The notes below the pieces were generated by a model that saw only the letters and a list, made by a program, of their open reading frames with translations, was not told the DNA's origin and did no database searches. A stretch of 64,000 nt of DNA from Sulfurimonas crateris (GTDB lineage: Bacteria; Campylobacterota; Campylobacteria; Campylobacterales; Sulfurimonadaceae), in NCBI RefSeq assembly GCF_005217605.1, contig NZ_SZPX01000006.1:62001-126000 (forward strand), given 5' to 3'. A program made the translations under genes and the position numbers. Shown here one piece after another: positions 25,099-31,061 of the stretch; positions within the stretch are counted from its first letter, which is position 1, and the number at the start of each line of letters is the position of its first letter.

Positions 25099-25848
25099 AT
25101 GGATAAACACACTATTTTAATTGTTGAAGATGATGAGATAACAGCCTTAAATCTAAAGTTATCTCTCCAAAAGCACGGCTATGAAATAGTCGGAATGTAT
25201 GATAACGCAGTAGAAGCAAAAGAGAAGATAGCTTCATATAGACCGGATGTCATTATAATTGACATCTCTCTTCAAGAGAGCAACGACGGGATAGAGCTCG
25301 CCAAAACTATCAGACAAAACTATGCTATACCGTTTATCTACCTTACATCCTACAGCGACGACGATATAATCTCAGAAGCTATAAAAACTGAGCCTTACGG
25401 CTATATCGTAAAACCTTTCGACCCATCATCACTGCATGCAACTATACAGATGGCGATATTCAAGTTTGAGATGGAAAACAAAAGAAGTGAAGAGGAAATT
25501 ATTCCAAAGCTTGATCAAAACAGCGTAGAGAAACTCCTTTATGCAAAGAGAGAGTCTGACAAGCCTGTTGTCTCTTTTAGCAATGGCTACCAGATGGATA
25601 TATCGCAAGATGAGATTTTATACAATAATGAGAAGATAAAACTGACAAAAAAAGAGAGAGCAATACTAAGGCTTCTTGTCGCAAAGCTTGGACAGACCAT
25701 CAGCTTTCCACAAGCCATAGATTATGTCTGGAAAGAGAATGGGGCAACAGAGAACAGCATTAGAACTCTTGTCTGGAGACTAAGAAATAAACTCCCTACC
25801 GATATTATTAAAAATGCGTCGGGGATCGGCTACTACATAGAGAAGTAG
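25099..25848 (+). CDS. Response regulator, receiver plus winged-helix DNA-binding domain, 249 aa
   Basis: Receiver domain, residues 5-120: acidic pocket EDDE, phosphoacceptor aspartate in VIIIDISLQ (about 55), threonine in FIYLTSYSD and lysine in YIVKPFDP. A linker of about 50 residues leads to an OmpR/PhoB-type winged helix (about 185-249; LTKKERAILRLLVAK and NSIRTLVWRLRNKLP, GIGYYIEK). Probably a transcription factor. It lies tail to tail with a hybrid kinase gene, the stops adjacent; a functional pairing is possible but unproven. Confidence 0.9.
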   Translation: MDKHTILIVEDDEITALNLKLSLQKHGYEIVGMYDNAVEAKEKIASYRPDVIIIDISLQESNDGIELAKTIRQNYAIPFIYLTSYSDDDIISEAIKTEPYGYIVKPFDPSSLHATIQMAIFKFEMENKRSEEEIIPKLDQNSVEKLLYAKRESDKPVVSFSNGYQMDISQDEILYNNEKIKLTKKERAILRLLVAKLGQTISFPQAIDYVWKENGATENSIRTLVWRLRNKLPTDIIKNASGIGYYIEK

Positions 25849-28506
25849 CTACCTGATCCTTATGGCCTCAAGTGCGCTTTTTATCTTCTTGTAAGAATCT
25901 TCATAATCAAAATTCGTATCTTTGGCTTTTGCCATCTTCTCTATCTTAGCACCCTCCTCTTGAACCGACTCAAGCCTGAAGTTACCGCTAGAACCTTTTA
26001 TACTGTGGGCAATAAGTGCTATGTTCTTATAATCTTTTGATTTTATAGCACTTTGCAGATCAGGAATCTGTTTTGCCATCTTTTTCAAAAATAGCTCGAC
26101 AAGCATTACTAGCTCATCGTTGCTCAGCATCAGCTCCTGACTTAATTTATCGTAGTCAAGCCCTTCTATAGTGTTTGCTTGCTCTGCCGGTTCTGAGCTC
26201 TCGACTACCTCTTCTAAAACATTTAGATAGTTAAAAAATACTCTCTCAAGCTCTTTTATGACGATCGGTTTTCCCAAGAAGGAGTCAAATCCGCTCTTTA
26301 ACCCTCTCTCTTTCACCCCTTTTATAACGTTTGCCGTCAAAGCAGATATAGGAGTGTGTCTTAACCCTCTCTCTTTTTCATACTTTATGATATTTTGGAC
26401 AGCCTCATTTCCATCCATAACGGGCATCTGCTCATCCATCAAAATAAGGTCATATCTGTTTGCTTTGTAAAGATTGACCGCTTCCAAGCCGTTTGCTGCA
26501 AGATCATAAGTAAGACCATATTTGCTAAGCAGGATTTTAATAAGCTCTTGATTTGCCTCATTATCCTCTGCTATTAACACATGCCCTTGAAACTTCATAC
26601 TCTTTTCTCTCTTATGTATAGAAAAAGAGTCTGGATGAAGCAGCTCATCAAAAGTCGTTCTTATCTTTGAGCAGTAGAGAGGGAAACAGGCAGATGATAT
26701 ATGCGAATACTTCTCATACTTGTCAGTAGGATTGCTTGTGATTGCCACATATTTTTTATCCGAGTTTATCATGTTCTCTTTCATATCACCATCAACATAC
26801 TCATCCAAAAAGACAGCTATATCGTAATTTCCATCCAAATTATCTACCATCTTTATGTCCATATTGAACATATCTGAATATTTTAAAAACGAGTCTGCCT
26901 TGTAGCCCCGTATCATATCTTTGGAGTAAAAGACCGTCTTTAGCGTCTTTAACTCATCGAGATCGCTGAATATCTGGCACTCGTAGTTATGTATCTCTAC
27001 AGGTATCTCTACCCAAAAGGTACTCCCCTCTCCAAGTTTTGATGACACATGTACGCTTCCGCCCATATGCTCGGCAAGCTGATGACAGATGGAGAGTCCG
27101 AGTCCTGTTCCCTCAAGTTCTTCTATCTCCCATCTTCCAGCCTGCGTAAATGCAGTAAATATATTTCTTATATCATCCCCAGCTATGCCAATACCATTAT
27201 CGCGAACACTTACTTTTAAGACATTATTTTGTTTGCACACCGCCTCAACATGTATATGGCCGCCTATTTTTGTAAATTTTATAGCATTGCTTAAGAGGTT
27301 AGAGAGAATCTGTTTGATCCTTAGCGAATCTGCATATAGCTCTTTTGGTATTCTCGGGTCTATAAAAGAGGTCACTACTATATCTTTTGCATTTGCAGAG
27401 GCGACGAAGAGTTCAAGAGTATGGCTTATCTCATTGTGAATGGAGAAGATTCTAGGCTCAATTGTAAACTCGCCGCTTCTTAGTTTTGTAAAGTCCAAAA
27501 TATCATTTATTATACTTAAGAGGTTCTCACCGCTGTTTAAGATGATTTCGAGATATTTTCTATGCTGCTTTGAGAGATCCTGCTCGATGAGAAGGTTAAC
27601 GAAGCCCAAAATCGCATTTAACGGAGTCCTGATCTCATGCGACATATTTGAGAGGAAGTAATCTTTTGCCTGAGAAGCCTTTTGCGCCTCAAGTCTGGCA
27701 TCTATAAGTGTTGTAACATCATTACCTATCGATATATACTCTATAGAGTTGTCATATGGGTCTATTATCTTTACGATTGTCACGTCTATATAGAAGTAGC
27801 CCCCGTTCTTTTTGTTATTTTTTATCGTACCTCTAAAGATGCCCGCATTTTCAAGCTGAAACCACATATCCTCAAAATACTCTTCGGGCATATCTTCATG
27901 CTTCATTAAATTATGCCCGCTTCCCATAAGCTCATCAATACTGTAGCCGCTGAGTTTTGAGTATTTTTCATTTACGTATGTGATTATCCCGTTTTGGTCG
28001 GTCTTTGAGATGATCGCACTCTCATCAAGTGCTTTTTGATACTCATTTAGAAGTTTTACATGTCTGTCAATCTCCTGCTCTTTTTCAAAAATGGTATCTG
28101 AGTAATATTTCAATATGCTCTGAAAGTTTTTATCAAAGATATATGTCAACTCGTCAAAAAGCTCTTTGGAGTTGATATTGGCATCAAAAGTAAAATCAAC
28201 AACCGCTCTTTTAAAATGGCTGCATATCTCAAAGAGCTCATCTGCTCTGATATCTTTATCTTTTAGATACAAAAGCAGCTTCTGCATGATCGGGCAGTTC
28301 CCTATTTTAACACTTCCTGCTATTACACCCATAAAGTAGTCAAATACACCGCCGCCATACTCCTCTATAAATAGACTCTTATCAATATCATGCAGTTGAA
28401 GCAACTTCTGCAAAGAGTCGTAAGAGGTCCAGCTTAAAAGCACGCTCTCTTTTGAGCCAACTAAAACATTTTGGTTCTTAGCAAGATTTTGTAGTTCTTT
28501 TTCCAT
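25849..28506 (-). CDS. Soluble hybrid histidine kinase: sensor-PAS-HisKA-HATPase-REC-HPt, 885 aa
   Basis: No membrane helices, so a cytoplasmic sensor. Order: N-terminal helical region (1-140, unrecognised), PAS (about 150-270, TYVNEKYSKLSGYSIDELMG), HisKA with the phospho-histidine in NMSHEIRTPLN (about 289), HATPase with DNGIGIAG and GTGLGLSICHQL (about 395-510), a degenerate receiver-like stretch (about 520-620), an intact receiver (about 640-755; LIAEDNEAN, LILMDEQMPVMDG) and an HPt domain with AHSIKGSSGNF (about 832). It can therefore run a full phosphorelay in one chain. It follows the pseudo-deformylase gene by 15 bases. Confidence 0.92.
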   Translation of the reverse strand: MEKELQNLAKNQNVLVGSKESVLLSWTSYDSLQKLLQLHDIDKSLFIEEYGGGVFDYFMGVIAGSVKIGNCPIMQKLLLYLKDKDIRADELFEICSHFKRAVVDFTFDANINSKELFDELTYIFDKNFQSILKYYSDTIFEKEQEIDRHVKLLNEYQKALDESAIISKTDQNGIITYVNEKYSKLSGYSIDELMGSGHNLMKHEDMPEEYFEDMWFQLENAGIFRGTIKNNKKNGGYFYIDVTIVKIIDPYDNSIEYISIGNDVTTLIDARLEAQKASQAKDYFLSNMSHEIRTPLNAILGFVNLLIEQDLSKQHRKYLEIILNSGENLLSIINDILDFTKLRSGEFTIEPRIFSIHNEISHTLELFVASANAKDIVVTSFIDPRIPKELYADSLRIKQILSNLLSNAIKFTKIGGHIHVEAVCKQNNVLKVSVRDNGIGIAGDDIRNIFTAFTQAGRWEIEELEGTGLGLSICHQLAEHMGGSVHVSSKLGEGSTFWVEIPVEIHNYECQIFSDLDELKTLKTVFYSKDMIRGYKADSFLKYSDMFNMDIKMVDNLDGNYDIAVFLDEYVDGDMKENMINSDKKYVAITSNPTDKYEKYSHISSACFPLYCSKIRTTFDELLHPDSFSIHKREKSMKFQGHVLIAEDNEANQELIKILLSKYGLTYDLAANGLEAVNLYKANRYDLILMDEQMPVMDGNEAVQNIIKYEKERGLRHTPISALTANVIKGVKERGLKSGFDSFLGKPIVIKELERVFFNYLNVLEEVVESSEPAEQANTIEGLDYDKLSQELMLSNDELVMLVELFLKKMAKQIPDLQSAIKSKDYKNIALIAHSIKGSSGNFRLESVQEEGAKIEKMAKAKDTNFDYEDSYKKIKSALEAIRIR

Positions 28507-28521
28507 TCGATTTTACTTTTC

Positions 28522-29328
28522 CTACATTATAAAATATGATATAAGCATAATTGCAAATACCTTTGTCAGCAATATCAGTGTCGTTCCTATTATGTTACCG
28601 ATCTGGCAACTTGTGCAAGAGGTAAATTTTTTACCTTCATACTGGGCATAAAAGAAATATATAATATTTAAAGTTATAGTAGCAAAAAAGAGAGATTTTT
28701 GATAACCCCATAACTCTTGCGAACTCTCTTCGGACATAAATAGTGAAGCAACAACAAAAACCAGCATTACAATCATCGTAATATTAACAGCTTTAACTAT
28801 GTAATCCCTGTTGAATTTTGTAGGACAAGCCTCTGAAATTGCAATATTGCTTCCAAAATCGAGTTTTTTTTCAAAGAGCTTCTTCTCTTCCTTATTTAAC
28901 TTGTTGAAAAAACTTGACCCAAAAGTATAGTCGATTTTTCTCTGAAGTAAAATACTAAAAGCTCCATCTGCCTTTAGGGAGTGCTGATTTGTCCCCCTGT
29001 CCTGATAAACAACGGTTATATGCTCATACCTCGTTACATTAGCGCTTAATCCGGGGAAATAAGCTGTTCTCTCTAGGGTTGTAACCCTTCCGCCGTTGCT
29101 TATGATCCTTGGATTTATCAGCTCTAAAAACTCTCCATCCTCTTTTTTAATAACCACGACATTATAATAACTTCCTATCTGAAACGCAGCAAGACCATCT
29201 AAAGAGTTTGCTTCAATAGTATCTTTTAAATCTTCAATCAAAGAGAGTATCTCTTCATTAAACACTCTTACATCTGTTGCATATTGTACACTTGGCGGGG
29301 TTGGATAGGTAATTATTTCTCTAATCAT
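28522..29328 (-). CDS. Degenerate peptide deformylase domain fused to membrane helices, 268 aa
   Basis: Residues 1-165 follow the peptide deformylase fold: motif 1 is present as DGLAAFQIG (consensus GLAAPQIG), motif 2 is reduced to FPGLSAN where EGCLS should be, and motif 3 reads LLQRKIDYTFG where QHEMDHLxG should be. The cysteine and both histidine metal ligands and the catalytic glutamate are all replaced, so deformylase activity is not expected. About residues 178-268 add three membrane helices, which deformylases lack, with CTSCQ between helices 2 and 3. It lies between the Sqr unit and a hybrid kinase gene on the same strand. A sensory, binding or anchoring role is possible; none is shown. 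Confidence 0.75.
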   Translation of the reverse strand: MIREIITYPTPPSVQYATDVRVFNEEILSLIEDLKDTIEANSLDGLAAFQIGSYYNVVVIKKEDGEFLELINPRIISNGGRVTTLERTAYFPGLSANVTRYEHITVVYQDRGTNQHSLKADGAFSILLQRKIDYTFGSSFFNKLNKEEKKLFEKKLDFGSNIAISEACPTKFNRDYIVKAVNITMIVMLVFVVASLFMSEESSQELWGYQKSLFFATITLNIIYFFYAQYEGKKFTSCTSCQIGNIIGTTLILLTKVFAIMLISYFIM

Positions 29329-29366
29329 AAAGGTACCTTATTTGGGTATCAGATCTAAACAGACAC

Positions 29367-29390
29367 AGAGCAGGAAAACTTTCCTACTCT
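29367..29390 (-). terminator. Hairpin downstream of the Sqr-linked small gene
   Basis: AGAG-AGGAAA pairs with TTTCCT-CTCT with one bulge per arm, 15 bases after the stop of the 54-residue gene. No long T-tract follows, so it may be a weak terminator or RNA-stabilising stem. Confidence 0.45.
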
Positions 29391-29405
29391 GCACTTTTAA
29401 AGAAG

Positions 29406-29570
29406 TTAGTGGCTTTTTCTTACCACTATTAACATTTTTATATTGATAACTATAAATCTGATAAACTGCCAGATCTTACATGTTCTTAATTTTATAGCAA
29501 ATTTTCCCGGTGTCATTGTCGTAAAATTTTTGCCGTATGCCTTAATATTGTGTTCTGCTTTCTTTTCCAT
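29406..29570 (-). CDS. Small basic protein downstream of sqr, 54 aa
   Basis: ATG at 29570 has a strong AAAGGAG ribosome site at ideal spacing, and the frame runs 54 codons to TAA at 29406-29408. It starts 21 bases after the sqr stop and so is probably co-transcribed. The product has a basic N-terminus and an amphipathic or membrane-associated C-terminal stretch, WQFIRFIVINIKMLIVVRKS, ending in histidine, with one cysteine at residue 31. I do not recognise a family. Association with the membrane near Sqr is a reasonable guess. Confidence 0.65.
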   Translation of the reverse strand: MEKKAEHNIKAYGKNFTTMTPGKFAIKLRTCKIWQFIRFIVINIKMLIVVRKSH

Positions 29571-29591: not shown

Positions 29592-31061
29592 CTATTCGGG
29601 AATCATTGTCCAGCCGGCTTTTAGCTTGGCTTTCCAGATGAAGAGGTGGTGAAGGATATGTTTGATCCAGTGACCAGCAAGACCGATCTCACCGAATGTA
29701 TAGTCTGTATCACGACCTGTTCCAGGGTATTTTTCAAAGTCAGGAACAACAGGGTAGATAGTCATTGCAGCGGCTGTTCCGTCAAATATGCCCTTTCCTG
29801 CCGAAGCGACACAAGCAGCACCCATGTGAGCCATAGAAGCTTCATGCAGAGGAGCATTCTCTCCCTTTAAAATTCTGTCGCAAATACTATGCGCAACCGC
29901 TTTTCCGATAATGCCTGATGGCATACCTGTTCTTGGAGGAGTGGGACTAATAGGAGTTCCGTTTGGTGAGCTCATAGGTTTGCTAATCGGGTGTGGAGGC
30001 GCGAACGCTATGCCGCATGCAAACATATTTGAGTATGTCGGGTTTTGGTAAGTTTTCGGCCAATCGCTTGCACTCCAGTTCTCGTAAGAGCCTGCAGAGT
30101 AGTTAGCATCTACTTTCATAAAACCGTTTGGAGCAAAAACCGTATCGGTAATATCTGAACCGTCTTTACCGTAAGCCTTAAGACCCACACCCGCAAAAGG
30201 AGGGATCAGCATTGAGAAGTCAAACTCCTCTTCACCCATTGAACCATCAAGCAGCTCATAGTGCACCTTTCCTTTTTCAACTTTGTTTACATGAGCGCCT
30301 ATTATCCAGTCAACATCTCTCTCCGTAAATAGAGACTCTGCAAAGATCTTTGAGCTGACCGCAAATCCCATACTCTTCATATGAAGTCCGCCAACCCCGA
30401 AATCGCCCAAGAAAGACTCGTTTGATATCCACTTTATATCAGCCATATCGCGAACACCGGCTTTTTTAAGCTCATGTTCAATATTGAAAATATACTCAAA
30501 AGCGGCACCTTGACATGTACACATACCGTGTCCCGTACCTATTAAAAACTTTTGACGCTCGCCCTGCTTCATCTTCTGGATGCACTTTTGAAACTCTTCA
30601 TTTGCATGAACAGCGTGATCTGCCGTACAAACTGAGACTGTAAATTCACCTAAACCGTTTGCATCACCAAGACCCTCAGTTGCGCCAAAGTTTAGTTTTG
30701 GACCTGTCGCGTTAATCAAGTAGTCATACTCTACATTTTCAACTTCGCCCTCGCGTCCTGCAAGCGTATACTCGATAGTAACAAAAGGCTTATCGCTCGA
30801 CTCTACACCCTCAGGATTTATTGAGACGGCCTTTGCCTGTTTGTAGTTGATGCCCGCTTTTGCATAAACCGGAGCCAGATCAAAAGTGACCTCCTCCTTG
30901 CTCATCTCACCGACACCGACCCAGATATTTGATGGAATCCAGTTCCATTTTGAATTTGGGGTAACAACCACTACCTCATGGGCAGAGCCTAACCATTTTG
31001 CGGCAAAGGTAGCAGCAGTGTGACCTGAAACTCCTCCGCCAAGAACAACTAATCTAGCCAT
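29592..31061 (-). CDS. sqr: Sulfide:quinone oxidoreductase, 489 aa
   Basis: FAD-dependent enzyme that oxidises sulfide to sulfane sulfur and reduces quinone at the membrane. The dinucleotide motif VVLGGGVSGHTAATFAAK opens the chain; SVCTADHAVHA (about 150) and GTGHGMCTCQGAAFEY (about 185) supply candidate redox cysteines, and the C-terminal FIWKAKLKAGWTMIPE is amphipathic, as expected for peripheral membrane attachment. Glycine/proline-rich APPHPISKPMSSPNGTPISP is an unusual insertion. Several Sqr types exist in sulfur-oxidising Campylobacterota; the type is not assigned here. Related flavocytochrome-c-like reductases are the alternative. AAAGGA precedes the ATG. Confidence 0.82.
   Translation of the reverse strand: MARLVVLGGGVSGHTAATFAAKWLGSAHEVVVVTPNSKWNWIPSNIWVGVGEMSKEEVTFDLAPVYAKAGINYKQAKAVSINPEGVESSDKPFVTIEYTLAGREGEVENVEYDYLINATGPKLNFGATEGLGDANGLGEFTVSVCTADHAVHANEEFQKCIQKMKQGERQKFLIGTGHGMCTCQGAAFEYIFNIEHELKKAGVRDMADIKWISNESFLGDFGVGGLHMKSMGFAVSSKIFAESLFTERDVDWIIGAHVNKVEKGKVHYELLDGSMGEEEFDFSMLIPPFAGVGLKAYGKDGSDITDTVFAPNGFMKVDANYSAGSYENWSASDWPKTYQNPTYSNMFACGIAFAPPHPISKPMSSPNGTPISPTPPRTGMPSGIIGKAVAHSICDRILKGENAPLHEASMAHMGAACVASAGKGIFDGTAAAMTIYPVVPDFEKYPGTGRDTDYTFGEIGLAGHWIKHILHHLFIWKAKLKAGWTMIPE

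Follow-up and report, generated by a model that had tools for sequence, protein, structure and literature searches.

The genome of Sulfurimonas crateris contains, in order and on one strand, a gene for sulfide:quinone reductase (SQR), a small open reading frame (ORF), and a gene for a membrane-anchored peptide deformylase-like protein that has lost its catalytic residues. This gene order, together with a pair of cysteines that is invariant in the deformylase-like protein, is the main new result of our analysis. The genes lie in a 64,000-nucleotide stretch of DNA that was analyzed as a whole and is referred to here as the window (Table 1). We use the working name PDFL for the deformylase-like protein encoded at 28522-29328. 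In the reading that we favor, at a little short of an even chance, PDFL is an SQR-linked membrane accessory protein and would act jointly with the small protein whose ORF lies between the two genes.

Table 1. Features of the SQR, small ORF and PDFL locus and of the genes beyond it, in window positions.
Feature	Description	Position	Strand	Basis or remark
SQR gene	489 aa; Cys 145, 181, 183, 417	29592..31061	-	homology to solved SQRs
Small ORF	54 aa, between SQR and PDFL; hydrophobic stretch, KSH end	29406..29570	-	
Hairpin	strong, between small ORF and PDFL; not followed by a clear T-run	29361..29396	-	
PDFL gene	268-aa membrane-anchored, metal-free deformylase-like protein	28522..29328	-	family of 173 distinct genes
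PDF-like domain	residues 2-149	28882..29325	-	Pfam PF01327; Foldseek 2ew5
Motif 2 equivalent (EGCLSVP)	reads ERTAYFP, residues 86-92; T88 replaces the metal Cys	29053..29073	-	MAFFT, HMMER
Motif 3 equivalent (QHExDH)	reads QRKIDY, residues 129-134; R130, K131 and Y134 replace His, Glu and His	28927..28944	-	MAFFT, HMMER
Juxtamembrane C168	CPT motif; Cys in 170/173 genes	28825..28827	-	
C-terminal membrane domain	helices 174-195, 200-234 and 236-267	28528..28809	-	AlphaFold
CTSC motif	C238 and C241, invariant in 173/173 genes, at last membrane helix	28606..28617	-	
Hybrid kinase		25849-28506	-	follows SQR locus in part of family
Response regulator		25099-25848	+	follows SQR locus in part of family

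The open reading frame of PDFL is intact over its 268 codons on the minus strand, as the initial annotation had it, and its product is predicted to adopt a true peptide deformylase (PDF) fold. The PDF-like domain matches the Pep_deformylase model of Pfam with an E value of 5.6e-33 and a score of 114.2 bits, against a cut-off of 22.8, and six PDF models of NCBIfam also match PDFL, all under their own cut-offs. An AlphaFold model calculated with an 82-sequence family alignment as input (mean pLDDT 90.4, pTM 0.60) places the PDF domain first and three helices after it, in agreement with the three C-terminal membrane helices proposed earlier. The best Foldseek match of this model is the H. pylori PDF (PDB 2ew5; E 7.2e-15, TM by target 0.88, 31% identity), and among the best 50 of 578 matches all are PDFs. 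Both the structure prediction and the comparison with solved structures thus uphold the deformylase fold that had been claimed from the sequence.

The catalytic center has been lost from this predicted fold. In the MAFFT and HMMER alignments the residues T88, R130, K131, and Y134 confirm the reported loss of the metal cysteine, both metal histidines, and the catalytic glutamate. Motif 3 had been read as QRKIDY, and the alignment agrees. Motif 2 had been read as PGLSA, which is out of register: EGCLSVP aligns with ERTAYFP in both alignments, and PGLSA begins at residue 92, six residues past the start of the motif. The shift in register leaves the conclusion of a lost catalytic center intact. 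A survey for homologs with the same lost ligands covered 173 distinct PDFL genes, with loci merged when their last 150 residues were identical. The metal Cys at position 88 and the Glu at position 131 are absent from every one of these genes, the second His is likewise found in none, and the first His is found in three. Of the 105 full-length proteins, 102 retain none of the four catalytic residues and the other three retain one His. Some of the family counts omit two ordinary PDFs (L001 and L108) and one partial gene (L109). We also considered a different set of Cys and His ligands in the PDF-like domain of the window protein and excluded it, as Cys is absent from this domain and H103 and H116 are its only His. 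At least one Cys and two His do occur somewhere in the PDF-like domain, outside the ligand columns, in 41 of 174 aligned rows, a set in which the window protein stands twice. Compared with peptide deformylase (Def, PF01327; PDB 2ew5), PDFL shares the profile, the predicted fold, the positions of the motifs, and the residues E86, R100, and D133. It differs in lacking the metal Cys and the catalytic Glu and in having at most one of the His, in the three membrane helices fused to it, which bear an invariant pair of Cys, and in that its host genome has a separate, intact PDF.

Several observations indicate that PDFL is maintained in this altered form. Relative to its nearest relative found (L156, 87% identity), the PDFL gene has a dN/dS of 0.07/0.689, or ~0.10, with values of 0.06/0.707 (~0.085) for the PDF-like domain and 0.088/0.678 (~0.13) for the membrane domain; in three further comparisons dS is near saturation, at 1.7 to 2.2. 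Tree building with 29 PDFL domains and 18 ordinary PDFs, all of the same order, separated the two sets by one branch with 100/100 support; the position of the root is not fixed. All 18 ordinary PDFs retain EGCLS and QHExDH, including the PDF of the window genome itself (L001). The separate branch, the purifying selection, and the intact PDF elsewhere in the genome agree with the initial annotation of PDFL as a maintained pseudoenzyme. We rejected decay of the gene, with a dN/dS of ~0.1 and no need for frame repair in any of the 105 full-length homologs. One copy, in Sulfurovum mangrovi (L267:5868-6683), looks interrupted, with two neighboring 'peptide deformylase' CDS in the annotation. Judged by its sequences, PDFL is a conserved clade in which the PDF fold appears to have been retained for a role other than catalysis.

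PDFL occurs in 121 of the 398 genomes of the order, a count that takes in partial genes in G336, G026, and G242 and leaves out fragments of the domain with which contigs of G022 and G161 begin. It spans nine family labels (f1, f4, f6, f7, f9, f17, f18, f20, and f22), with f20 represented by one partial gene. Among the best 80 of 222 relatives the titles are of Campylobacterota type, except for three that are titled only 'bacterium' (L183, L191, and L220). A metagenome bin titled Helicobacter pylori PMSS1 (L219) carries a Sulfurimonas-type PDFL locus, and its title is probably wrong. One genome (G020) has a second, very divergent deformylase (L261) that contains EGCLS and QHEYDH and sits on a long branch of the tree.

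The gene upstream encodes an SQR-family flavoprotein that matches the Aquifex SQR (PDB 3hyv) with an E value of 6.2e-40, and the Cys residues of the two proteins align. The window SQR is longer than the Aquifex protein (489 vs 430 residues) and has an extra Cys, Cys181, in a CTC motif. All four Cys residues listed in Table 1 are invariant in the 126 aligned rows, window included, and we take the Aquifex residues with which the window Cys align to be active-site Cys. Sulfurimonas are described as carrying several SQR types, of which type IV is present in all sequenced species and forms a clade with type I (PMC4584964). This description and the Aquifex best match suggest that the window SQR is probably of type IV (SqrD).

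SQR is found directly upstream of PDFL, on the same strand, in 138 of the 173 distinct genes. Upstream of PDFL there are SQR and the small ORF in 137 cases, SQR only in one, the small ORF only in five, and neither in 30. The gene with SQR only (L093) was classed by a distance rule and does have the small ORF by profile; of the five with the small ORF only, four are at contig ends and the fifth (L082) is real. Of 80 named loci, SQR is present in 67 and absent in 11, and two stop short of its place. A close SQR (E <= 1e-100) is encoded by 119 of the 121 PDFL genomes, vs 195 of the 398 genomes overall, and in the two PDFL genomes without one (G259 and G361) the contig ends before the place of SQR, with the small ORF or its end present. 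Shared ancestry confounds and inflates this co-occurrence. PDFL is absent from 76 of the 195 SQR genomes and is therefore dispensable for having this SQR; two of the 76 have a stand-alone form of its membrane domain, and some have more distant SQRs. In G102, PDFL is ~7 kb from SQR and on the opposite strand. Second PDFL copies are located away from SQR; those at two loci (L034 and L035) are behind the same short gene, the product of which by eye resembles a DsrE-type sulfur-transfer protein.

The small ORF starts 21 nt after the SQR stop codon and has AAAGGAG upstream of its ATG. A profile built from three copies finds it in 209 of 267 sequence sources, many of which cover the same genes as other sources, and some of which contain only ordinary PDFs. 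Among 162 distinct SQR genes that include the C terminus, the small-ORF motif is downstream in 157, the contig ends in one, and the pattern missed four. The profile finds the small ORF in three of these four (L195; L268, E 1.8e-14; and L269, E 9.5e-6), and the fourth (L134) yields no more than a weak candidate (E 0.99). Both L268 and L269 are plasmid sequences, from a gammaproteobacterium and an alphaproteobacterium, with the small ORF annotated as 'hypothetical protein'. SQR and the small ORF are found on Thiodictyon and Marivivens plasmids, with PDFL not beside them. By this distribution, SQR and the small ORF are the wider unit, and PDFL a third gene added in part of the Campylobacterales. 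Three members of the small-ORF family gave no match to Pfam up to an E value of 10, and when the three were compared with NCBIfam the only match was between the window copy and a single unrelated model (E 0.043), well short of that model's cut-off. G281, a genome in which the full unit is present, carries a second small ORF (L082:8800-8958, minus strand) that occurs with PDFL and without SQR.

The gap between the small ORF and PDFL is 77 nt long and contains a hairpin with a fold-energy z of -2.8. A stem of at least 9 bp lies after the small ORF in 110 of the 139 loci compared, vs 33 of 139 shuffled sequences, where the shuffle kept base composition only; some of these stems fall inside the PDFL coding sequence, and T-runs follow in only 7 of 139. 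The hairpin is a possible transcript-processing or attenuation element, and its presence makes co-transcription of PDFL with the small ORF uncertain. Promoter-like sites (16, with 7.4 expected) and terminator-like sites (4, with 2.0 expected) were counted in 3 kb and were not used as evidence.

Across the 173 distinct PDFL genes only five positions show no variation: E86, R100, and D133 in the PDF-like domain, and C238 and C241 in the membrane domain. The mean share of the commonest residue is 0.785 in the CxxC block, 0.597 in the PDF-like domain, and 0.525 in the membrane domain, and these values together with dN/dS place both parts of the protein under constraint. Because the PDF-like domain is the more conserved part and holds three of the five invariant residues, the data do not force the Cys site to be the working part, and our confidence in a Cys-centered mechanism is slightly lower as a result. 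The mean number of Lys and Arg residues is 2.4 before the first transmembrane helix (TM1), 0.6 in the TM1-TM2 loop, and 2.1 in the TM2-TM3 loop. By the positive-inside tendency, this pattern gives weak support to a topology with the PDF-like domain and all three Cys on the cytoplasmic side, weak because the segment before TM1 also averages 2.7 acidic residues.

The membrane domain also occurs by itself. A stand-alone 98-residue protein with three helices, a CTGC motif, and no PDF part is encoded behind SQR and the small ORF in G142 and G392, matched at E values of 2e-8 and 5.6e-8 by a profile built without these copies and used to search the ORF set. With the two copies taken into the profile, a search of the 104 genomes of the family to which G142 and G392 belong found a third stand-alone domain (E 1.6e-15) in G434, a member of another genus, and here too SQR and the small ORF precede it; full-length PDFL is present in six of the genomes searched. 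The existence of these copies shows that the membrane part does not require the PDF part. We set aside assignment of the membrane domain to a Pfam family, for which only weak matches were found; those of FeoB-associated Cys-rich proteins (PF12669) were to 15 of 38 membrane-domain members (best E 0.0065) and not to the window domain. The PDFL membrane domain resembles those proteins in being small and in having Cys close together. FeoB-associated Cys-rich membrane proteins have one helix, whereas the PDFL domain is predicted to have three and is linked to SQR. Compared by sequence with solved structures, the membrane domain gave a best E value of 0.29, and homology to such a structure was rejected.

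SQR makes sulfane sulfur, and the role that we favor for PDFL, an accessory to SQR and the small protein, would have two parts. The dead PDF domain would be a strongly constrained, non-catalytic docking or peptide-binding module that perhaps grips the small protein or SQR. The residues at its catalytic positions differ by subclade (TRKY, DRKM, SQMF, and others), and because the pocket varies in this way we take the domain to be a docking module and not a catalytic center. The Cys site could take sulfane sulfur, as persulfide or polysulfide, when it is released by SQR and pass it to cytoplasmic carriers; alternatively, it could hold a metal or a disulfide that steadies or tunes SQR. The most specific form of the proposal is a three-part sulfide-oxidizing unit of SQR, a small membrane protein of ~54 residues, and a dead-deformylase membrane subunit, in which the Cys triad of the subunit would hand sulfane sulfur to the cytoplasm and the fold of a translation enzyme would have entered a respiratory complex. 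We consider this specific form possible but doubtful.

If the link between PDFL and SQR is real, this SQR works as more than a single protein in these sulfur oxidizers, and the route of sulfane sulfur out of SQR and into the cytoplasm gains a concrete candidate. The gene order suggests that the fold of a translation enzyme may have been reused in sulfide respiration, and PDFL would be a clear case of a PDF fold retained for a non-catalytic job. Where annotations were seen, PDFL is called 'peptide deformylase' and the small ORF 'hypothetical protein'. In the open-license literature we found no described role for PDFL, and judged PMC5441870, PMC11439405, and PMC6548844 to be unrelated; for the small ORF, the literature covered was that on SqrD/SqrF, and no described role was found there.

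The foremost alternative is that PDFL is a neighbor of SQR and not a partner, with another function in the membrane and a position kept by vertical inheritance. The 30 genes with neither SQR nor the small ORF upstream fit this possibility, and missing sequence explains only one of them (L109, with 2 nt); they include second copies whose genomes have a further, SQR-linked PDFL, and the copies of one family that are placed elsewhere. It is likewise in keeping with the variation of downstream genes from family to family and with PDFL tree groups that largely track organism families. However, the adjacency to SQR persists across families in which the downstream genes have changed, and the stand-alone membrane domain is found at the same place in two genera, and we consider adjacency without partnership unlikely, if still deserving of weight.

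A second alternative starts from the deformylase fold itself. PDFs dock at the ribosome exit by their C-terminal helix, and a dead PDF might still bind formylated N termini or the ribosome exit and hold the nascent chain of the small protein or of SQR at the membrane for insertion. The helix that follows the PDF-like domain (residues 146-158) is retained in the PDFL model, the domain is well conserved, and the small ORF, upstream of PDFL in 142 of the 173 genes, accompanies it even where SQR is missing (L082). Motif 1, which the initial annotation described as kept, bears on this alternative from both sides: its Gln, Q50, is present in 165 of 173 genes, but residue 45 is Gly in only 67 and Ala in 102. 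The differences in the pocket between subclades and the existence of a membrane domain without the PDF part also speak against it, and overall we judge a role in binding nascent chains to be quite unlikely.

PDFL had further been placed between an Sqr unit and a hybrid kinase, with a role as a sensor suggested. Both neighbors adjoin it in the window, and the SQR side of this arrangement is conserved as described above, but the kinase side is not: a related hybrid kinase is the next gene downstream in only 13 of 76 loci, and we rejected it as a constant neighbor of PDFL. The clustering of neighbors over these 76 loci lost L054, L058, and L079, and SQR neighbors were counted by direct search. 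The kinase cluster also follows SQR without PDFL between them, both in a genome without PDFL (L121) and in two with PDFL elsewhere (L137 and L140). A membrane-located Cys pair could act as a readout of redox state, and a sensor of this or of sulfide that passes its signal to the kinase downstream would suit the 13 loci. With the kinase not next to PDFL in the other 63 and no output domain found in PDFL by Pfam, the sensor role is not borne out, and we hold it to be improbable. That PDFL has remained an enzyme and acts as a deformylase or amidase through an unusual center is very improbable despite the PDF fold and a partly kept motif 1, given the replacement of all four catalytic residues in nearly every full-length protein and of three of four in the rest, the scarcity of candidate ligands in the window domain, and the intact PDF in the same genome.

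The hybrid kinase of the window has, by eye, a recurring G-N/K-C-P pattern in its unassigned N-terminal part.
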